NCBI RefSeq assembly: GCF_030812315.1
Contig: NZ_JAUSSM010000016.1
Coordinates: forward strand, 1 to 64,000
Reading direction: 5' to 3'
Source: Arthrobacter oryzae
Lineage (GTDB): Bacteria > Actinomycetota > Actinomycetes > Actinomycetales > Micrococcaceae
Length of the DNA: 64,000 bases
Shown here: piece after piece, positions 13,029-62,486 of the stretch
Numbering within the stretch: position 1 is the first letter of the stretch
Layout of the letters: each line of letters begins with the position of its first letter
Notes under the pieces: generated by a model
Database searches by the model: none
What the model was told of the DNA's origin: nothing
Seen by the model: the letters and a program-made list of their open reading frames with translations, nothing else
Translations under genes and position numbers: made by a program

Positions 13029-14273
13029 ATGAACCCGTCGAAGAGTCCGGCCGAGATCCTCAACATTGACGGCGCCGAGGTTCGCATCTCGAGTCCGGAC
13101 AAGGTGGTGTTCCCTGAGCCCGGGCTGACGAAGCTGGACCTGGTGCGCTACTACCTCGCCGTCGCCGATGGTGCGCTGCGCGGCGCCGGGGGCCGCCCGA
13201 TGGTGCTCAAGCGCTTTCCCAAAGGGATCGACGCCGAGGCGTTCTTTCAGAAGCGCGTGCCCGAGAACCACCCCGACTTCATCGACACGGCAGTACTGAA
13301 GTATGCGTCGGGGACGTCGGCAGAGGAGGCCGTCATCCGGGATGCTGCGGGCCTGGCGTGGGTCGTGAATCTTGGCTGCCTCGACCTCAACCCCCATCCC
13401 GTTCGCGCCGAGGACCTCGATCATCCCGACGAGCTCCGGGTCGACCTCGATCCCATGCCGGGGGTCGGCTGGTCCCAGATTGTCGACGTCGCCTATGTCG
13501 CGCGGGAGGTGCTCGACGACGTCGGACTGGTGGGGTGGCCGAAGACCAGCGGATCGCGCGGGCTCCACATCCTGGTGCGCATCGCGCCGCAGTGGTCGTA
13601 CCGCGACGTGCGGCTCGCCGCGGAGACGCTTGCCCGTGAAGTCGAAAATCGCGCTCCGGGCCTCGCCACCGCGCGGTGGTGGAAGGAGGAGCGCGGCGAG
13701 AGTGTGTTCGTCGACTTCAACCAGAATGCCAAGGACCGCACGGTGGCATCGGCGTACTCGATCCGGCCCCTGCCCGATGCCCGGGTCTCGACGCCGCTCG
13801 CCTGGGACGAGGTCCGCTCCGCCCGGCCGGAACAGTTCACGGTGCGCACGGTGCCCGGGCGCTTCGCCGACGTGGGCGACCCTCACGCCGGCATCGACGA
13901 GGCCGTCGGCATGCTCGACGGGCTGCTCGCGCTGGCGGCCGAGCTCGGCCCCGCCGAGAAGCCGCCGCGCAGCGGTGACGGTTCCGGCCGTCGGCAGTCG
14001 ATGATGCCGCTCATCGAGGTGGCCCGCACCAAGACCAAGCCCGAGGCGCTCGCGGCACTCGACGAGTGGAAGACCCTGCATCCCGGAGTCGTCCCGGCCC
14101 TGCACCCGGCCGATGTGCTCGTCGACGGAATGCGCGGTTCGAGTTCGCTCTGGTACCGGGTGCGGGTGAACCTGCAGCACGTCCCCGAAGCGGAGCGTCC
14201 GCCGCAGGAGGAGCTCATCGCCGACTACGACCCCTGGGACGGCAAGGAGTGGCCGGGGCGCCCGGGGTCCTGA
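13029..14273 (+). CDS. LigD-type polymerase-domain protein (stand-alone primase/polymerase of NHEJ)
   Basis: 414 residues covering only the LigD polymerase (archaeo-eukaryotic primase-like) domain; no ligase or phosphoesterase part. Landmarks: 'VVFPEPGLTKLDLVRYYLAV', 'PMVLKRFPKGIDAEAFFQKR', the catalytic Asp pair in 'ELRVDLDPMPG', 'KTSGSRGLHILVRI' and a third acidic motif 'VFVDFNQNAKDRTVASAYS'. In NHEJ this domain fills in DNA ends with Ku and a ligase, neither of which is nearby. The C-terminal ~90 residues ('MMPLIEVARTKTKPEAL') are an extra segment also seen in actinobacterial homologues. Codon use (many TCG, CTC, GTC before GAC) differs visibly from the surrounding purine genes, suggesting separate origin. 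Confidence 0.87.
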   Translation: MNPSKSPAEILNIDGAEVRISSPDKVVFPEPGLTKLDLVRYYLAVADGALRGAGGRPMVLKRFPKGIDAEAFFQKRVPENHPDFIDTAVLKYASGTSAEEAVIRDAAGLAWVVNLGCLDLNPHPVRAEDLDHPDELRVDLDPMPGVGWSQIVDVAYVAREVLDDVGLVGWPKTSGSRGLHILVRIAPQWSYRDVRLAAETLAREVENRAPGLATARWWKEERGESVFVDFNQNAKDRTVASAYSIRPLPDARVSTPLAWDEVRSARPEQFTVRTVPGRFADVGDPHAGIDEAVGMLDGLLALAAELGPAEKPPRSGDGSGRRQSMMPLIEVARTKTKPEALAALDEWKTLHPGVVPALHPADVLVDGMRGSSSLWYRVRVNLQHVPEAERPPQEELIADYDPWDGKEWPGRPGS

Positions 14274-14281
14274 GCCGGCGG

Positions 14282-14319
14282 CGCGCAAAGTGCCTGGCGA
14301 CGCGCAAAGTGCCTGGCGC
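14282..14319 (+). repeat. 19-bp tandem repeat, two copies
   Basis: Two adjacent copies of cgcgcaaagtgcctggcg(a/c) at 14282-14300 and 14301-14319, identical except at the last base, starting 8 bp after the LigD-polymerase stop. They lead directly into the palindrome at 14323. Confidence 0.8.
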
Positions 14320-14322
14320 AAC

Positions 14323-14370
14323 GCAAAAGGAATGGCGACACCCGAATTCCGGTGTCGCCACTCCTTTTGC
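14323..14370. terminator. Inverted repeat with 20-bp arms between convergent genes
   Basis: Arms gcaaaaggaatggcgacacc (14323-14342) and ggtgtcgccactccttttgc (14351-14370) pair fully, with one G-T wobble, around an 8-nt loop. It lies between the convergent LigD-polymerase gene and the small minus-strand gene and can serve both strands as a terminator. Short T and A runs flank the inside of the stem and not the outside. Confidence 0.6.
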
Positions 14371-14404
14371 GCGTCATCAGCGAAGATGCGTGTCGTCAGC
14401 CTTG

Positions 14405-14593
14405 TTACGAACGCTGGCCGCCGAAGCCCGGCAGTCCGTGGACCCAGCGCGAGAACCGGCCGGGGACGTGCTCCCGATCTGCGGGCAGGTAGAAGTCCGG
14501 ATCCGTTCCGCCTCCGAGGGGGAGGTAGAACTCCTGGACTGAGGGTGCCGCCGTCTGTGCCGGTGCAACCGGCGTTGTGTCCTGCTGGTACAT
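14405..14593 (-). CDS. Small hypothetical protein (62 aa)
   Basis: A real gene is supported by a near-ideal ribosome site, GGAGGAGG 5-6 nt before the ATG. The product is soluble, without membrane segment or cysteine, and contains a near-duplicate 'EFYLPLGGGTDP' / 'DFYLPADREHVP' followed by 'GRFSRWVHGLPGFGGQ'. I do not recognise the family. It ends 34 bp before the palindrome shared with the LigD-polymerase gene, and its promoter must lie in the same 356-bp region that precedes uricase, so it may be co-regulated with purine catabolism. Confidence 0.6.
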   Translation of the reverse strand: MYQQDTTPVAPAQTAAPSVQEFYLPLGGGTDPDFYLPADREHVPGRFSRWVHGLPGFGGQRS

Positions 14594-14734
14594 CTGATCC
14601 TCCTCCGAGGTGGTGGTCCCTTAGAATTCCGTAAGATGGAAAATAACTTTTGCTATGTGAAATAGCCTAAAGTGCATCCTCACCATTCGTCAATGGTCCG
14701 GGGCGCCCCCGGTCACAATCGGATTTTTCGATTA

Positions 14735-14748
14735 GTGATGTACACCAC
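14735..14748. promoter_or_regulatory. Near-palindrome GTGATGTACACCAC, candidate GntR-type operator
   Basis: One mismatch from a perfect 14-bp palindrome (GTGRTGTACAYCAC). The TGRT-N-ACCA type core resembles operators of the GntR superfamily. No GntR gene is present in the window, so the assignment is speculative. Confidence 0.3.
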
Positions 14749-14754
14749 GGCAAA

Positions 14755-14806
14755 GCTCCGCTACGCTTTAAGTCAACTCGTGGCGTAGGTCACGTAACCT
14801 GGGAGC
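14755..14806 (+). ncRNA. Possible structured leader RNA upstream of uricase
   Basis: GCTCC at 14755-14759 can pair with GGAGC at 14802-14806, enclosing CTACGC (14761-14766) with GCGTAG (14783-14788) and a small GGT...ACC hairpin. This two-hairpin unit is followed 19 nt later by an intrinsic terminator. It matches no riboswitch class that I recognise. It could be an attenuator leader or part of a ~100-nt small RNA; pairing was judged by eye only. Confidence 0.3.
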
Positions 14807-14824
14807 AGCAGGCAGGGTCGTAAT

Positions 14825-14856
14825 GAGCTGGCGTCATTGGATGCCGGCTCTTTTTT
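14825..14856 (+). terminator. Intrinsic terminator upstream of uricase
   Basis: Stem gagctggcgtc (14825-14835) with gatgccggctc (14840-14850), two G-T wobbles, loop attg, followed at once by TTTTTT (14851-14856). It is oriented along the plus strand, 94 bp before the uricase start and with no open gene upstream on that strand, so it ends a non-coding transcript or attenuates uricase. Confidence 0.7.
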
Positions 14857-14909
14857 GTTGGGTCGGCTCCATCAGAAACGCGTGGGAAACACGCGCTTAA
14901 TTTCAATGA

Positions 14910-14925
14910 TGGAACCTAGGTTCCA
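14910..14925. promoter_or_regulatory. Perfect 16-bp palindrome TGGAACCTAGGTTCCA, candidate IclR-family operator
   Basis: The TGGAA-N6-TTCCA architecture is that of IclR/AllR-type operators (AllR controls allantoin/glyoxylate genes in E. coli). It lies about 25 bp before the uricase ATG, where binding would block transcription. An IclR-family regulator is encoded 3 kb downstream in the same purine island. Confidence 0.6.
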
Positions 14926-14949
14926 CATCACGGAAGTTGGGAACAGACC

Positions 14950-15858
14950 ATGAGCAGCAAAATCATCCTCGGCCAGAACCAGTACGGCAAGGCCGAAGTC
15001 CGGGTCGTCAAGATCACCCGGGACACCGACCGCCACGAGATCGAAGACCTGAACGTCACCTCGCAGCTCCGCGGGGACTTCGCCGCAGCCCACCTCGAAG
15101 GCGACAACAGCCACGTCGTTGCCACGGATACGCAGAAGAACACCATCTACGCGTTTGCCCGCGGCGGCGTCGGCTCGCCGGAGGCGTTCCTCCTGCGGCT
15201 GGGCGAGCACTTCACGTCCAGCTTCGACTGGGTCACCGGCGGCCGCTGGGAAGCCGAGTCCTACAGCTGGGACCGGATCCAGGCTCACGGGGCAGAGCAC
15301 AACCACTCCTTCGTGCGCAACGGCCAGGAAGTCCGCACCGCCGTGCTGGTCCGCGACGGCGCGGCAACGCACCTCATCTCGGGCCTCAAGGACCTCACGG
15401 TGCTCAAGTCCACCCAGTCCGGATTCGTGGGATACCCGAAGGACAAGTACACCACCCTGCCGGAGACCACGGACCGCATCCTGGCCACGGACGTTTCCGC
15501 ACGCTGGCGGTTCAACGCCAACACGGACTTCAGCGCCCTCGATTTCAACAAAAGCTATGAAGACGTCAAGAGCCTCCTGCTGGAAGGCTTCACGGAAAAG
15601 TACTCACACGCCCTGCAGCAGACCCTGTTCGACATGGGCGCCAAGGTCCTGGAAGCGCACAGCGAGATTGACGAGATCAAGTTCTCGATGCCAAACAAGC
15701 ACCACTTCCTGGTGGACCTTTCACCGTTCGGCCTCGACAACCCCAACGAGGTCTTCTTCGCCGCAGACCGTCCGTACGGCCTGATCGAGGCCACAGTTCA
15801 GCGCGAAGACGCCGCTCCGGCAGATATCGCCTGGAACGGGATCGCCGGCTTCTGCTAA
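14950..15858 (+). CDS. pucL: Urate oxidase (uricase)
   Basis: 302 residues, the same length and sequence style as the well-known Arthrobacter globiformis uricase. Segments include 'LGQNQYGKAEVRVVKITR', 'DLNVTSQLRGDFAAAH', 'VVATDTQKNTIYAFAR', 'DRILATDVSARWRFN', 'IKFSMPNKHHFLVDL', 'NEVFFAADRPYGLIEATVQR' and the terminal 'GFC'. The cofactor-free enzyme oxidises urate to 5-hydroxyisourate with O2. Genes for hydroxyisourate hydrolase and OHCU decarboxylase, which usually follow, are not in the window. ATG start; the upstream 'GGAAGTTGGGAAC' is only a loose ribosome site. A hairpin terminator follows the stop, so it is probably monocistronic. Confidence 0.96.
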   Translation: MSSKIILGQNQYGKAEVRVVKITRDTDRHEIEDLNVTSQLRGDFAAAHLEGDNSHVVATDTQKNTIYAFARGGVGSPEAFLLRLGEHFTSSFDWVTGGRWEAESYSWDRIQAHGAEHNHSFVRNGQEVRTAVLVRDGAATHLISGLKDLTVLKSTQSGFVGYPKDKYTTLPETTDRILATDVSARWRFNANTDFSALDFNKSYEDVKSLLLEGFTEKYSHALQQTLFDMGAKVLEAHSEIDEIKFSMPNKHHFLVDLSPFGLDNPNEVFFAADRPYGLIEATVQREDAAPADIAWNGIAGFC

Positions 15859-15865
15859 CCATCTT

Positions 15866-15895
15866 CCGGTGGTTGAGCCCAGGCTCAACCACCGG
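15866..15895. terminator. Hairpin after uricase
   Basis: Perfect 14-bp arms ccggtggttgagcc / ggctcaaccaccgg separated by two bases, starting 7 bp after the uricase stop. There is no T tract, but stability and position support termination or 3'-end protection. Confidence 0.7.
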
Positions 15896-15912
15896 GCCCC
15901 ACCCCACGTCTT

Positions 15913-15976
15913 GGAGTTTTTGTCCACTTACGGCGACTTCCGGACGCCTAAACCCCTGTATCTGGACAAAAACTCC
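15913..15976. repeat. Long-spaced inverted repeat, 14-bp perfect arms
   Basis: ggagtttttgtcca at 15913-15926 and its exact complement at 15963-15976, around a 36-nt spacer. It follows the uricase hairpin directly. Same architecture as the other intergenic palindromes here, with an unrelated stem sequence. Confidence 0.75.
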
Positions 15977-16001
15977 GCACCAGCTTCACCGATTCAAACC
16001 T

Positions 16002-16076
16002 GTTAGCCAGACACCGTTAGCCAGACAAAGACGTCTGCCATGAACACCAAGAAAGTCTGCCATGAACATTAAGAAG
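16002..16076 (+). repeat. Two successive tandem duplications over the start of the urate permease
   Basis: A 14-bp unit gttagccagaca(cc/aa) is present at 16002-16015 and 16016-16029. A 22-bp unit beginning gtctgccatgaaca is present at 16033-16054 and 16055-16076, differing at only three positions. The second duplication copies the ATG region, so a decoy ATG at 16040 opens a 10-codon frame whose TAA (16070-16072) overlaps the real permease start at 16062. Confidence 0.85.
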
Positions 16077-17567
16077 AAATCGGCCGCTGCATTAGCCGGC
16101 ACCGGCCGCAAGCAGTCCGACCGCCCGGAGGACCAGCGGCTTTCCCTCGGAAGCACCTTCGCCTACGGCTTCCAGCACGTCCTCACCATGTACGGCGGCA
16201 TCATCGCCCCGCCGCTGATCATCGGCGCAGCGGCCGGGATGTCTTCGCAGGACATTGGGCTGCTGATCGCCGCCTGCCTCTTCGTTGGCGGCCTGGCCAC
16301 GATCCTTCAGACGATCGGCATCCGGTTCTTCGGATCCCAGCTGCCCCTGGTCCAAGGCGTCTCGTTTGCCGGAGTGTCCACCATGGTGGCGATCGTCCAC
16401 GGTGGCGGAGGGATCCAAGCCGTCTTCGGCTCCGTGATTGTGGCCTCGCTGATCGGCTTGCTCATCACCCCGCTGTTTTCCAAGATCATCCGCTTCTTCC
16501 CGCCGGTGGTCACGGGCACCGTAATCACCACCATCGGCCTGACGCTGATGCCCGTCGCAGCCAACTGGGCCATGGGCGGCAACAGCAAGGCGCCGAACTA
16601 CGGCAGCGTGGCCAACATCGGCCTTGCTGCGGCAACCATGGCAATCGTCCTGTTGCTCAGCAAGGTGGGCAGCGCCGCAATCTCCAGGCTTTCCATCCTG
16701 CTGGCCATGGTCCTCGGCACAGTGATTGCCTTCGTCTTCGGCATGGCTGACTTCTCCAAGGTGGGCCAGGGCGAAATCGTCGCGTTCCCCACCCCGTTCG
16801 CATTCGGTCCGCCCACGTTCGAGATCGCCGCGATCATCTCCATGCTGATCGTCATCCTCGTGACGCTCACCGAGACCTCCGCGGACATCATTGCGGTCGG
16901 CGAGATCGTGGGAACCAAAGTTGATTCCAAGCGCATCGGTGACGGCCTGCGGGCGGACATGCTCTCCAGCGCCATCTCGCCGCTGTTCAACTCCTTCACC
17001 CAGAGCGCCTTCGCCCAGAACGTGGGCCTCGTTGCGATCACGGGCGTCAAGAGCCGCTTCGTGGTGAGCGCCGGCGGCCTGATCCTGGTGATCCTTGGCC
17101 TCCTCCCGGTTCTTGGCCGCGTGGTCGCAGCGGTGCCGACTCCCGTCCTGGGCGGCGCCGGCGTCGTACTCTTTGGAACGGTTGCCGCCAGCGGCATCCG
17201 GACACTTGCCAAAGTCGAGTACAAGAACAACATGAACCTGATCATCGTGGCGGCGTCCATCGGTTTCGGCATGATCCCGATTGCCGCCCCCTCGTTCTAC
17301 GATCAGTTCCCGTCCTGGTTCGGCACCATCTTCCACTCCGGCATCAGCTCGGCCGCTGTCATGGCCATCCTGCTGAACCTGCTCTTCAACCACCTCAAGG
17401 CCGGCAACTCGGAGAACCAGTCAGTGTTCGTGGCCGGCACGGGGCGCGTGGTCCGCGAAGAGGACCTCAAGTGCCTGGCCGACGGCGACCGTTTCGAGGA
17501 CGGCAAGCTGATCGACTGCGACGGCAAGGAAGTCCCGGTGGAGTCGACGTCGAAGTCTGACCACTAA
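16062..17567 (+). CDS. NCS2 family urate/xanthine:cation symporter
   Basis: 501 residues, polytopic (about 14 segments). Family features: 'FAYGFQHVLTMYGGIIAPPL' with the conserved Gln-His in segment 1, 'GVSFAGVSTMVAIV', 'TETSADIIAVGEI' with the essential Glu, and the signature 'QSAFAQNVGLVAITGVKSRF'. This signature is of the urate/xanthine branch (PucJ/PucK, UacT, XanQ) and not uracil carriers. It would import urate or xanthine for uricase and the dehydrogenase. The C-terminal ~70 residues are a hydrophilic tail. The ATG is the second copy of a duplicated start region; a decoy ATG upstream reads 10 codons and stops inside the gene. Confidence 0.9.
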   Translation: MNIKKKSAAALAGTGRKQSDRPEDQRLSLGSTFAYGFQHVLTMYGGIIAPPLIIGAAAGMSSQDIGLLIAACLFVGGLATILQTIGIRFFGSQLPLVQGVSFAGVSTMVAIVHGGGGIQAVFGSVIVASLIGLLITPLFSKIIRFFPPVVTGTVITTIGLTLMPVAANWAMGGNSKAPNYGSVANIGLAAATMAIVLLLSKVGSAAISRLSILLAMVLGTVIAFVFGMADFSKVGQGEIVAFPTPFAFGPPTFEIAAIISMLIVILVTLTETSADIIAVGEIVGTKVDSKRIGDGLRADMLSSAISPLFNSFTQSAFAQNVGLVAITGVKSRFVVSAGGLILVILGLLPVLGRVVAAVPTPVLGGAGVVLFGTVAASGIRTLAKVEYKNNMNLIIVAASIGFGMIPIAAPSFYDQFPSWFGTIFHSGISSAAVMAILLNLLFNHLKAGNSENQSVFVAGTGRVVREEDLKCLADGDRFEDGKLIDCDGKEVPVESTSKSDH

Positions 17568-17615: not shown

Positions 17616-17702
17616 GCGCGAACGGACAGTTGAGGCCCTGTTTCCAGGGGCCTCAACTGTCCGTTCGTGCGTGCAGGATGGGCCTCAACTGTCCGTTCGC
17701 GC
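17616..17702. repeat. Three-armed palindromic element between urate permease and IclR genes
   Basis: The left arm (17616-17638) pairs perfectly over 23 bp with a distal arm (17680-17702) and over 17 bp plus inner pairs with a nearer arm (17651-17667). All three carry the same core gcctcaactgtccgttcg or its complement. Two alternative hairpins are therefore possible. It lies between convergent genes and can end transcription from both sides. Confidence 0.8.
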
Positions 17703-23904: not shown

Positions 23905-23919
23905 CCCGGGCTCTTTCCC

Positions 23920-23983
23920 CCAACTGACTCGCAGTTAACGTCGCCAAACCGCGGTTTCGCGACGTTAACTGCGAGTCAGTTGG
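23920..23983. repeat. 64-bp near-perfect palindrome after the ureide operon
   Basis: Arms of 32 bp meet at a central ccgcgg with a single mismatched pair; the outer 25 bp (ccaactgactcgcagttaac... and complement) match exactly. It lies 16 bp after the allE stop. It would form an extremely stable hairpin and a potential cruciform; no T tract. It can act as terminator, but length and sequence are beyond what termination needs. Confidence 0.8.
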
Positions 23984-24048
23984 GTTAGTGGGAACTTAGC
24001 CGACACCGCATCCGACAGCTATTGACGCCTCCGGACGGGCTGAGGAAC

Positions 24049-43056: not shown

Positions 43057-44370
43057 ATGTCCGCCCTACGAGAATCACTTGGCTTCCTGACAAGCCGCCT
43101 CCGCCAGGTTGGCATCTTCGTCGCCCTGATCCTGATCGTCCTGCTTTTCCAGGTCCTCACTGACGGCATCCTGCTGCAGCCGCAGAACGTCACCAACCTG
43201 GTGGTCCAGAACAGCTACATCCTGATCCTGGCCATTGGCATGGTCATGGTCATCATCGCCGGCCACATCGACCTCTCCGTGGGGTCCATCGCCGGCTTCA
43301 TCGGCGCCGTGTCTGGTGTGATGATCGTCCACTGGGGCTGGGCCTGGTGGATCGCCATACCGGCCTGCCTGCTGGTCGGTGCCCTGGTGGGTGCCTGGCA
43401 GGGCTACTGGATTGCCTACGTGGGCATCCCCGCGTTCATCGTGACCCTCGCGGGCATGCTCATCTTCCGCGGATTGACCCTGATCACCCTGAAGAACCAG
43501 CAGATCACGCCGTTCCCGGCCGAACTGCGCGCCCTCGGCGGCGGCTTCCTGCCCGACATTTCCGGCGGCACCTCCGTCCTGGAATGGCTGACTGTCATCC
43601 TGGGCGTCGGAGGCACGGCGGCCATCCTGTTCCAGGCCATCAAGGAACGCCGGGTCCGCCGGAAGTTCAACCTCGAAAACGAACCCATGGCCTGGTTCGC
43701 CATCAAGACCGGGTTCATCGCGCTGCTGATGCTCAGCATCACGTTCCTGCTCGCCAGCTACCGGGGAACGCCGATCGTGCTGATCGTGCTGGCCGTCCTG
43801 GTCATTGTCTATTCGGCGCTCATGAACAACAGCATCTTCGGCCGCCACACGTACGCGATCGGCGGCAACCTGCATGCAGCCGAACTTTCCGGCATCAAGA
43901 CCAAGGCAGTGACCTTCCGGCTGTTCGTGAACATGGGTGTCCTGGCCGCACTGGCCGGCCTCGTCTTCACTGCCCGCCTGAACTCGGCCCAGCCGGCCGG
44001 CGGCACTGGCTTCGAGCTGGATTCCATCGCCGCCGCCTTTATCGGCGGCGCCGCGGTACAGGGCGGCATCGGCACCGTGGCCGGGGCCATGGTGGGCGGC
44101 CTGATCATGGGCGTGCTCAACAACGGCATGTCGATCCTCGGCCTCGGCACCGACTACCAGCAGCTCATCAAGGGCCTGGTGCTCCTCCTTGCCGTGGGCT
44201 TCGACATCTTCAACAAGAACCGCAGCAGCGGCGGCGGATCCGCCATCGGAAAGCGGTTCAAGCTCAAGACGACACCCCCTGCCGGTGCGGAAACCAAAGA
44301 ACCGGCCCAGGACCGTCCGGTGGCCGTGCCCGCCGGTACCCAGCAGAAGAGCGCCGTCCGCAACCCCTGA
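43057..44370 (+). CDS. gguB: Multiple monosaccharide ABC transporter, permease
   Basis: 437 residues, about ten membrane segments; 'ILILAIGMVMVIIAGHIDLS' and 'VGSIAGFIGAVSGVMIVHWG' are the BPD_transp_2 signature, with the coupling region 'AELSGIKTKAVTFRLFVNMG' and 'FIGGAAVQGGIGTVAGAMVG'. The ~50-residue C-terminal tail is hydrophilic, Pro/Ala/Lys-rich. It forms the membrane channel for the ChvE-like binding protein. Starts 5 bp after the ATPase stop. Confidence 0.95.
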   Translation: MSALRESLGFLTSRLRQVGIFVALILIVLLFQVLTDGILLQPQNVTNLVVQNSYILILAIGMVMVIIAGHIDLSVGSIAGFIGAVSGVMIVHWGWAWWIAIPACLLVGALVGAWQGYWIAYVGIPAFIVTLAGMLIFRGLTLITLKNQQITPFPAELRALGGGFLPDISGGTSVLEWLTVILGVGGTAAILFQAIKERRVRRKFNLENEPMAWFAIKTGFIALLMLSITFLLASYRGTPIVLIVLAVLVIVYSALMNNSIFGRHTYAIGGNLHAAELSGIKTKAVTFRLFVNMGVLAALAGLVFTARLNSAQPAGGTGFELDSIAAAFIGGAAVQGGIGTVAGAMVGGLIMGVLNNGMSILGLGTDYQQLIKGLVLLLAVGFDIFNKNRSSGGGSAIGKRFKLKTTPPAGAETKEPAQDRPVAVPAGTQQKSAVRNP

Positions 44371-44416: not shown

Positions 44417-44638
44417 ATGTCCCCGCCAATTGAGCAGATCGACGAAGCACCGGAAAACTGGCGGATGCTGATTGGCAGCTGGGTGGAACTGCGCCACGAG
44501 GGCCGGTTAGTCCGCACCGGCGAGGTGGAAGACGCCACGGCTGACTCAGCCGTGATGTGGCTGAAGTTCAACGGCAACCACGGCCGCCAGCTGGTGGCGG
44601 AGAGCGACGGCTACGAGATTCGCCGGATCGGCCGCTAG
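44417..44638 (+). CDS. Small hypothetical protein (73 aa) downstream of the sugar transporter
   Basis: Starts 46 bp after the permease stop with GGAAAGGA upstream. Sequence: acidic N-terminus, then a compact beta-like part 'GSWVELRHEGRLVRTGEVED', 'ADSAVMWLKFNGNHGRQLV' and 'GYEIRRIGR'. This looks like a small barrel domain; I do not recognise the family. A strong hairpin follows after 35 bp, so it is the last gene of the transcript. Confidence 0.68.
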   Translation: MSPPIEQIDEAPENWRMLIGSWVELRHEGRLVRTGEVEDATADSAVMWLKFNGNHGRQLVAESDGYEIRRIGR

Positions 44639-44673: not shown

Positions 44674-44723
44674 AAACGGGAGGCCGACGGCGGCAGTCAC
44701 GTGCCGCCGTCGGCCTCCCGTTT
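44674..44723. terminator. Perfect 22-bp hairpin, bidirectional terminator (copy 1)
   Basis: Arms 44674-44695 (aaacgggaggccgacggcgg..) and 44702-44723 pair without mismatch around gtcacg; the stem ends in AAA/TTT. It separates the plus-strand small gene from the convergent NYN gene. A near-identical copy lies at 45674, on the other side of the NYN gene. Confidence 0.85.
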
Positions 44724-44731
44724 GTGGTTCT

Positions 44732-45592
44732 TCAGGCCTTGGCGCCGGCTGTCGGCCTCGCGGACGGAGTGTTGGTCACCTTGAGCCCGCAGCCTTCTTC
44801 GGCAAACGCCGTCAGGGTCTTGTAACCGAAGGTCCGGTAAGTGACATCGGGCCAGCGGTCCCTCAGCATCTGGCCGAGGCGAGGCGCGTTCACCAGGCCG
44901 TTCACCCAAAGGGTGGGATCGTCCTTGAGGAAGGCGTGGACGCTTGCTTTGAAAAGTTCGAGTTGCGTGTGCTGGTCGGCGGCTGGATTCTTCTTGGTCG
45001 GCGCCTTGACCGGCGCCTTGATCGGTGCCTTCACCGACGCCGTCGTCGTCGGCTTCATCACAACCGCTGCTACGGGTGCGGCCGGAGGCGCGGGGATGTC
45101 GATGACATGGAAGTGGTCCGCCACGGATTGCAGCACTTTATTGACGACGCCAGCTTTAGGTTGCGAGGTGGTGGCCACCAGCGAACGCTTTCCGAGCGCG
45201 TGCAGGCGGCGGATGAGCGGAACGAAGTCGCCGTCGCCGCTGACGATCACGAAGAGTTCTATCCAGGGCATGTCCGTGGCGACTGCCAGGGCATCAACCA
45301 CCAGTTCGATGTCGGCGGCGTTCTTGGCGCTGTTCCCGAAGGAAAAGACCTGGACGGGTTCGATGTTGTTGGCCAGAAGCTGGCTCCGGTATCCGGTCAT
45401 CTCGGGGTGCGCCCAGTTGGCGTAGGCACGCGCTATGGCCGTGTCACCGCCCAGCCCGCTATTCCCGGCTGCCTCCTTGATATCACGCACGATCTTGGCC
45501 AGCGGCACGGAGGTGACATCGTTCCTGTACCCGCCAAAGAGATTTTCCATATCAAGGAAAATGGCCACATTCCGTCGTTGCGACCCAGCCAC
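44732..45592 (-). CDS. NYN domain (PIN-like) protein with C-terminal OST-HTH/LOTUS-like domain
   Basis: 286 residues. The NYN nuclease fold opens with 'NVAIFLDMENLFGGYRND' (first catalytic Asp), followed by 'ARAYANWAHPEMTGYRSQLL', 'KNAADIELVVDALAVATDMP' and 'LFVIVSGDGDFVPLIRRLHA' (acidic active-site residues). A Lys/Pro/Ala linker with 'APIKAPVKAPTKK' repeats leads to a C-terminal helical domain 'LFKASVHAFLKDDPTLWVNG...GYKTLTAFAEE' resembling OST-HTH RNA-binding modules. Likely an RNA-processing or decay enzyme. GTG start, GGAGG 8 nt upstream. Flanked on both sides by copies of one hairpin. Confidence 0.83.
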   Translation of the reverse strand: MAGSQRRNVAIFLDMENLFGGYRNDVTSVPLAKIVRDIKEAAGNSGLGGDTAIARAYANWAHPEMTGYRSQLLANNIEPVQVFSFGNSAKNAADIELVVDALAVATDMPWIELFVIVSGDGDFVPLIRRLHALGKRSLVATTSQPKAGVVNKVLQSVADHFHVIDIPAPPAAPVAAVVMKPTTTASVKAPIKAPVKAPTKKNPAADQHTQLELFKASVHAFLKDDPTLWVNGLVNAPRLGQMLRDRWPDVTYRTFGYKTLTAFAEEGCGLKVTNTPSARPTAGAKA

Positions 45593-45673
45593 GTGACCGT
45601 CCTCCCCCAGCGAATAGTAAGCAGATCCTATCCCCCGCCGCGGCCGATCTTGCCCGGACGCGCAATGACAGCG

Positions 45674-45723
45674 AACGGGAGGCCGACGGCGGCAGTCACG
45701 TGCCGCCGTCCGCCTCCCTGTTT
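45674..45723. terminator. Second copy of the hairpin flanking the NYN gene
   Basis: Shares 37 consecutive bases with copy 1 (45674-45710 versus 44675-44711), including both stem arms' core and the loop, but the distal arm carries a c for g change and a small indel, so the stem has a mismatch. It follows the minus-strand aldo/keto reductase stop by 33 bp and can terminate that operon. Confidence 0.8.
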
Positions 45724-45755
45724 CAGTGGTTCCGCCGCAGTGGTCCCGGTGCTGC

Positions 45756-46787
45756 TTAGCGGCCGCCCTCGATCTTCCGGCTGCGCTGTTCCTGTGCCAT
45801 CGGACCATACGGGTACACGCCCACGTGCGGCTGGCTGATGTCGGTCAGCCGCCTGGTTTCGTCCTCCGACAGCTGCAGGTCCGCCGCGGCAAGGTTATCC
45901 GCCAGCTGCTCCGTGGTGCGGGCTCCGAGGATCACGGACGTGACAGCAGGGCGGTCCGCCAGCCAGGCCAGCGCAACCTGCGAGGCACTCACGCCGTGGT
46001 CTGCCGCGATCTTCTCCACGGTTCCGATGACCTCCCAGGTCCGCGGATTGTCGTTGCGGGCCTGCCAGGCTTCCATGCCGCGTTTGGGATTCTCGCCGAG
46101 CCGGGTGGCGCCTGCCGGCGCCTCGTCGCGCTTGTACTTGCCGGAGAGCCAGCCGCCGCCAAGCGGCGACCACGGCAGCAGGCCGATGCCGGCGTCCAGG
46201 GCGGCGGGAACAATCTCCGATTCAATGTCGCGGACCAGCAGGCTGTATTGCGGCTGCAGGGTAACCGGTGCGCTCCAGCCGTGGGCCTTGGCGACGTGCA
46301 CCGCCTTGGTCAGCTGCCAGCCCAGGAAATTGGAGAAGCCGTAGTAGGCAATCTTGCCGCTGCTGACCGAGTCGTGCAGGAACCGCAGCGTCTCCTCCAG
46401 CGGCGTGATGGGATCCCAGGCGTGCATCTGGTACAGGTCAATCTGTTCGACGCCGAGGCGGCGCAGCGAATCGTCCAGGGCACGCGTCAGGTGCCGCCGG
46501 GAGGTTCCGACGTCGTTCGGGGCCTGGCCCATGGGGAATCGGCCCTTGGTAGCCAGGACGGCACGGTCCCGGACCTCGGCACGGGCGGCCAGCCAGCGGC
46601 CGATAATCTGTTCCGAGACACCCTGGCTGTAGACGTCCGCGGTGTCGATGAAGTTGCCGCCAGCTGCAAAGTAGTCATCAAGGATGGCGAAGGACGTGTC
46701 CTCAGTGGCTTCAGCGCCGAACGTCATGGTGCCCAGCGCGTAGTTGGATACGACGGCGCCGCTGTTCCCTAGTGTGCGGTATTCCAT
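45756..46787 (-). CDS. Aldo/keto reductase
   Basis: 343 residues. 'LGNSGAVVSNYALGTMTFGA', catalytic region 'NFIDTADVYSQGVSEQIIGR', Lys in 'VLATKGRFPMG', His in 'IDLYQMHAWDPITPLEETLR', cofactor end 'SVILGARTTEQLADNLAAAD'. Belongs to the AKR11/12-like NADPH-dependent group. ATG after GAGGAG. It starts 8 bp after the sugar-nucleotide-type dehydrogenase gene, suggesting a two-gene operon for a sugar or sugar acid. Confidence 0.92.
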   Translation of the reverse strand: MEYRTLGNSGAVVSNYALGTMTFGAEATEDTSFAILDDYFAAGGNFIDTADVYSQGVSEQIIGRWLAARAEVRDRAVLATKGRFPMGQAPNDVGTSRRHLTRALDDSLRRLGVEQIDLYQMHAWDPITPLEETLRFLHDSVSSGKIAYYGFSNFLGWQLTKAVHVAKAHGWSAPVTLQPQYSLLVRDIESEIVPAALDAGIGLLPWSPLGGGWLSGKYKRDEAPAGATRLGENPKRGMEAWQARNDNPRTWEVIGTVEKIAADHGVSASQVALAWLADRPAVTSVILGARTTEQLADNLAAADLQLSEDETRRLTDISQPHVGVYPYGPMAQEQRSRKIEGGR

Positions 46788-62435: not shown

Positions 62436-62446
62436 TCGTTACCGGA

Positions 62447-62486
62447 TGGCCGGGCCGCGGAGACTTCCGCGGCCCGGCCATTTTTT
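62447..62486 (+). terminator. Rho-independent terminator of csbD
   Basis: tggccgggccgcgga (62447-62461) and its exact complement 62466-62480, tetraloop gact, followed by TTTTTT (62481-62486). The clearest terminator of the window. Confidence 0.95.

Follow-up and report, generated by a model that had tools for sequence, protein, structure and literature searches.

A terminator-like hairpin repeated on either side of an NYN-domain gene in Arthrobacter oryzae, and its relatives across the genus

Bidirectional intrinsic (Rho-independent) terminators between convergent genes are among the systems that the hairpins described here resemble most closely: the likeness lies in a GC-rich perfect stem, an A-rich 5' foot, a T-rich 3' foot and a position that is mostly immediately downstream of stop codons. 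The difference is that here a near-identical stem is reused at many genes, which are packed in one chromosomal zone. REP/BIME palindromes, which are associated with RAYT transposases, are intergenic, multicopy and palindromic and lie near gene 3' ends. The present family shares these traits, but it is regionally confined and is not accompanied by a Y1 transposase domain in the 4 genomes searched. Deletion between short direct repeats proceeds either by a RecA-dependent route or by slippage. The locus examined here has two repeat copies 1 kb apart, and a sister species has one copy and no gene; unlike in the general case, the repeat is itself a terminator-like palindrome, so that the remaining junction keeps one. 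Integron gene cassettes are single genes bounded by shared folded attC sites. Genes of the zone are similarly bounded by shared folded sites, and their order differs between species; in contrast to cassettes, the core of these sites is a strict palindrome and the hairpins follow genes on either strand.

The hairpin pair and its genes

Positions 44675-44719 and 45674-45718 of the window (the whole 64-kb stretch of A. oryzae DNA that was analysed) form a direct repeat in which 44/45 bases are identical, with a spacing of 999 bp. An earlier note on this DNA had reported 37 identical bases at the same spacing, and indeed the first 37 bases of the repeat are free of mismatches. The repeat and its surroundings comprise the following features.

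43057..44370, plus strand: gguB, sugar ABC transporter permease, the upstream operon gene (NCBIfam GguB, 553 bits against a cut-off of 450; PF02653)
44417..44638, plus strand: orf73 (P0001), encoding 73 aa, family unassigned (translation); the last gene on the left side, convergent to the NYN gene
44675-44730, plus strand: hairpin copy 1 (repeat extent), with stem 44674-44695 / 44702-44723; probable bidirectional terminator of orf73 and the NYN gene (blastn, folding)
44732..45592, minus strand: gene for an NYN-domain (LabA-like) protein of 286 aa (Pfam)
45674-45732, plus strand: hairpin copy 2, with stem 45677-45718; probable terminator at the 3' end of the AKR gene (blastn, folding)
45756..46787, minus strand: aldo/keto reductase gene, AKR (PF00248, E 3e-82)

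Hairpin 1 lies between the convergent orf73 and NYN genes, and hairpin 2 between the start of the NYN gene and the end of the AKR gene. To the left of hairpin 1 the plus strand carries the ggu sugar-transporter operon, whose ATPase gene we take to be gguA, and then orf73, the product of which has no match in Pfam or NCBIfam.

In copy 1 a 6-nt loop caps a perfect stem of 22 bp, and the stem of copy 2 has 18 positions with one mismatch. By blastn, copy 2 runs to 45732, and about 12 right-flank bases are common to both copies with small indels. RNA folding gave -50.0/-49.1 kcal/mol for copy 1 (z ~ -10) and -39.3/-40.4 kcal/mol for copy 2 (z ~ -7), and for each copy none of 200 shuffles was equally stable in either fold. 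Both copies therefore have the stable GC-rich hairpin of an intrinsic terminator (-50 and -39 kcal/mol), and copy 1 is placed as such a terminator would be, beginning 35 bases past the orf73 stop. The T-tracts 3' of both stems are short: copy 1 on the plus strand passes a rule of 5 T in 8 for the tail, and copy 1 on the minus strand and copy 2 are not among the passes listed.

When up to 3 mismatches were allowed, the 34-nt core was found in the window at the two copies only (chance expectation 0.00 from 100 shuffles). A search of the whole genome for more copies, as the earlier note had proposed, returned by blastn one further close hairpin at C4:178684-178729 and a weak match at C1:22659-22704. 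The C4 hairpin (178682-178738) has a perfect 22-bp stem, and its loop differs from that of the window pair. Rfam gave 0 matches at gathering score in the window, and a tRNA search found none. Hairpins of other kinds were also observed in the window. A 66-nt palindrome at 23919-23984, with arms of 32 positions and one mismatch, is unlike the hairpin family and has a relative at C17:26680 of the same genome; it may be a small mobile element or a palindromic repeat of another kind. Strong hairpins with non-family stems at 14322-14371, 17616-17670 and 62446-62481 are candidates for ordinary terminators.

Presence and absence of the NYN gene among relatives

The locus was compared between the A. 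oryzae genome (G000) and congeners in Arthrobacter and Pseudarthrobacter, which carry the other G-numbers. A close NYN orthologue (E <= 1e-40) is present in 7/206 genomes of the genus, A. oryzae included, and only in A. oryzae does the gene have hairpins on both sides (1/7). In G123, G101 and G020 the family hairpin lies only between the NYN and AKR genes, and orf73 and the NYN gene are close together. In G063 and G114 it lies between gguB and orf73, with none directly beside the NYN gene; the hairpin towards AKR is unrelated to the family. Since three of these genomes have a hairpin on one side only and two have none beside the NYN gene, the gene can persist without a hairpin on each side. 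In G162 the NYN gene is found at another place, with no hairpin found beside it. The hairpin between gguB and orf73 in G114 (L335 3578-3613) and G063 (L272 1103-1140) may cut orf73 off from the operon.

Eight congeners that lack a close NYN gene keep a hairpin after orf73 (G148, G141, G059, G098, G087, G090, G016 and G004). Of 14 orf73 loci that were examined, A. oryzae included, 9 have the family hairpin directly after orf73; since it was mostly the hairpin that led to these loci, this count is no measure of how often the two occur together. Homology between G098 and the window ends at 44718, inside the hairpin, beyond which G098 has an unrelated gene; in G004 a different gene faces orf73. 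Inspected by eye, both of these genes look like subtilisin-type proteases. Next to orf73 the ggu operon is absent from G020 and G123, and none was found there in G101 or G059. Among 29 AKR loci of other congeners, orf73 is within 1.5 kb only in G020 and G059, and neither orf73 nor the NYN gene was found within that distance at the other 27. The window region is collinear with G020 and G123 except for missing blocks.

In G148, G141 and G059 the order is orf73, one hairpin, AKR, with no NYN gene between. These genomes have no close NYN gene elsewhere, because the genus-wide search found orthologues in seven genomes only. Of the loci examined, that of G148 is closest to A. oryzae (GguB 99% identical, DNA ~92%). 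Its homology with the window reaches 44730 on the left and resumes on the right at 45666, just before hairpin 2, and both homology arms land on the same single hairpin of G148. The two loci therefore differ by the NYN gene plus one hairpin, a unit of 999 bp. The earlier note had suggested that the direct repeat could allow deletion of the gene, and had proposed a look for strains that lack the interval. At the level of species this is indirectly supported by the three congeners with one hairpin and no NYN gene and by the arms of G148; within one strain no excision or polymorphism was seen, and the gene may instead have been gained.

The AKR tree places G148 and G000 as sisters (98/97), likewise G059 and G123 (99/98), and the presence of the NYN gene therefore needs 3 changes, whether gains or losses; 4/11 inner branches are well supported, and no more than 3 changes suffice in 38/500 shuffles of the NYN label. 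In all 15 pairs the NYN gene has diverged more than AKR, by a factor of 1.40-2.38 (1.77-2.38 for pairs that include G000, 1.40-2.06 for the rest), a pattern consistent with descent from a shared ancestor and repeated loss. Both A. oryzae copies have the loop TCACGT, and G148 and G141 have TCACAT. The identical loops of A. oryzae fit a recent duplication or gene conversion and speak against a simple ancestral pair. As far as sequence comparison goes, the divergence ratios point to descent and the shared loop base to recent duplication, and the gene may have been either lost or gained.

The reading that we favour, and hold to be probable, is that the pair is a duplicate of a bidirectional intrinsic terminator and that homologous exchange or slippage between the copies removes or inserts the NYN unit. 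On this reading a single bidirectional terminator would stand between AKR and the convergent orf73, which closes the ggu operon in this genome. The NYN gene and one hairpin copy would then make up the 999-bp unit that is present or absent between sister species, with its edges at the hairpins. Homologous exchange or replication slippage between the palindrome copies would delete the gene, or insert it in the reverse direction, and each exchange would leave one working terminator at the junction. Recombination between the copies is the simplest route.

Alternatively, the hairpins might be two ordinary terminators of separate origin, or separately retained, that were kept alike by gene conversion, with the NYN gene having come and gone in some other way. 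Terminators are expected at both places, each hairpin occurs without the other in some species (that of orf73 in G098 and G087, that of AKR in G020, G123 and G101), and the identical loops of A. oryzae would fit conversion. Nevertheless, exactly one hairpin lies between orf73 and AKR in G148, G141 and G059, and we regard this explanation as unlikely.

A hairpin family and a zone of sister hairpins

The stem of the hairpin, searched as GGCCGACGGCGGCAG-NNNN-CTGCCGCCGTCGGCC with up to 3 mismatches, was found in 77/150 genomes of the genus; this is an upper bound, several of the 31 loci inspected being imperfectly paired and perhaps coding. The reversed control pattern was found in 0 among the rows listed. 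No description of the family was met in the literature searched, mostly the openings of abstracts. In the available part of one article Arthrobacter appears once, in a table row for A. livingstonensis, and this hairpin is not described there (PMC12306157).

Following the stem core through the A. oryzae genome led to a sister hairpin type, CGACGGCGGGANNTCCCGCCGTCG. Its 16 exact copies in this genome all fall within C7:220-305 kb and C17:43-55 kb, about 107 kb in total; the two contigs adjoin end to end by the gene order of G020. Exact copies are similarly concentrated in G098 (9/9 within 296-365 kb, 69 kb), G123 (8/8 within 3972-4062 kb, 90 kb), G029 (2/3 within 457-480 kb) and G020 (at least 12 in 991-1105 kb). 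Clustering was judged by exact patterns because the covariance model R1 scored 150 of 14,141-17,440 first-look candidates per genome. The core CGACGGCGG/CCGCCGTCG is carried by 14/16 strong hairpins at C7:212-306 kb, by 0/2 at C7:1-21 kb and by 1/4 at C4:170-190 kb. In the 64-kb window it is carried by 1/8, namely copy 1, copy 2 having a mismatch. In a scan of public sequences, 107/109 stretches among the matches listed, which may omit near relatives of the A. oryzae genome, are titled Arthrobacter or Pseudarthrobacter; the remaining two are MAGs, one labelled Micrococcaceae and one Rhodospirillaceae. The contig labelled as Rhodospirillaceae (L230) carries an Arthrobacter-type palindrome and is possibly a binning error. 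The view of the earlier note that repetition of a terminator is unusual thus fails for this genus, in which the stem occurs in up to 77/150 genomes and the sister type is multicopy.

Within the C7 zone, where gene calls are rough, 12/19 hairpins lie no more than 50 bp from the 3' end of a called gene, on either strand. The other 7/19 have no called 3' end within this distance, and three of them are inside a called, perhaps spurious, ORF. Of these seven, the hairpin at C7:229785 seems to lie between divergent genes. A mobile REP-like palindrome, spread in trans to sites between genes by a transposase, would account for a sister type in many copies and for a family hairpin that takes three different gaps of the NYN locus across species. 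However, a search for PF01797, the Y1 transposase domain of RAYTs, detected it in 0/4 genomes, with the control search positive in 5/14 named genomes, and the position of the 12 copies at gene 3' ends also argues against it. We therefore rejected a REP/RAYT origin, to which we give little credence.

Another explanation takes the zone palindrome as the DNA site of a region-specific chromosome-organising protein, the pair in the window being outliers. A fixed 22-base palindromic core and its regional confinement would suit such a site. However, in 45 zone hairpins the bases flanking this core vary and still pair beyond the shuffled expectation: just outside the core, pairing is found in 42/45 at position -1 (34.9 in shuffles) and in 38/45 at position -4 (25.0 in shuffles), and beyond position -6 it is not above shuffles. 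Pairing that is kept just past the core while the bases change, and a location at gene 3' ends, fit RNA hairpins rather than a protein site, and the chances of this explanation are slimmer still.

Many genes are common to the zones of A. oryzae and G020, and their order and orientation differ. In the zones of four species, the neighbours at junctions with a family hairpin stayed adjacent in 38/139 comparisons versus 77/125 for hairpin-free junctions (p 2e-8); the contrast with junctions that contain other hairpins (10/19, p 0.03) is weaker, and the comparisons are not independent of each other. A first test that mixed the zone with its flanks gave 41/144 versus 166/274 kept, and later tests were limited to the zone. 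When junctions were defined more strictly, by genes and with a gap of 60 bp or more, 16/73 hairpin junctions versus 57/108 others were kept; shuffling the labels within species and orientation class gave a value as low as 16/73 in 29/5000 cases. For junctions with both flanks mapped the difference is small (16/22 with a hairpin versus 93/108 controls), and the effect is therefore mainly one of presence or absence of a neighbour; some of the missing neighbours fall outside the stretches compared.

A single rechecked event is used here as an example of exchange, the list of swap events being inflated by hairpins less than 600 bp apart. The left flank of the hairpin at C7:297458-297505 corresponds to G098 360493-361463 and its right flank to G098 335568-335815, and each alignment stops within a hairpin of G098, the two places being 26 kb apart. 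Of the other events rechecked, event 1 (G020/G123) is not a clean case, event 3 resembles a unit swap and event 4 is uninformative.

If the pair in the window is a duplicated terminator between whose copies DNA is exchanged, as we favour, the same process acting on the sister hairpin, with 8 to 16 copies in ~70 to 110 kb, may scramble the gene order of the zone. We offer only tentatively the further suggestion that the zone is an integron-like shuffling region without an integrase, in which single-gene modules are exchanged at a palindromic bidirectional terminator, a working copy remaining each time, and of which the NYN unit is an outlying example. Were hairpin terminators such recombination joints, genes could be lost, gained and moved with transcription boundaries intact, and terminator sequence would be linked to genome plasticity. 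The clustering in one zone is readily testable in long-read genomes, and the zone offers a natural system for studying how terminator stems homogenise.

The NYN protein

The product of the NYN gene matches PF01936 with E 1.1e-28 (101 bits against a cut-off of 24.2). The earlier note had called it an NYN/OST-HTH protein; the NYN part of this label stands, whereas the C-terminal OST-HTH/LOTUS domain (PF12872) scores 19.8 bits, under the Pfam cut-off of 23.8. PADLOC gave only a weak LabA-like NYN match (E 8e-5), and a sequence search of the PDB gave one weak match, 2qip (E 0.0016). A structure model built from 7 sequences has a mean pLDDT of 48.8; residues ~211-270 reach ~80 and are barely covered by the fold comparison. 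Foldseek returned no match for the model at E <= 0.001. In a second fold comparison the NYN chains of MARF1 scored Z 6.8 and 5.9, tied with unrelated folds and in a range common for such folds, so that the model is uninformative beyond Pfam.

The earlier note had also proposed that the hairpin RNA is a target of the flanking protein, as substrate or ligand, a reading for which the proximity of the two, the NYN domain and the MARF1 matches may be cited but which we rejected as the main one and consider very improbable, because hairpins occur without a close NYN gene in eight congeners and the family at many NYN-free genes, the gene is flanked on both sides in 1/7 genomes, and none was found beside it in G162. 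The hairpin copies need not be recognised by the NYN protein. A distant NYN paralogue (28% identical) was observed inside the hairpin zone of A. oryzae, at C7:274012-274572, and another in the zone of G020, at 1011802-1012374; their presence there is probably a coincidence.
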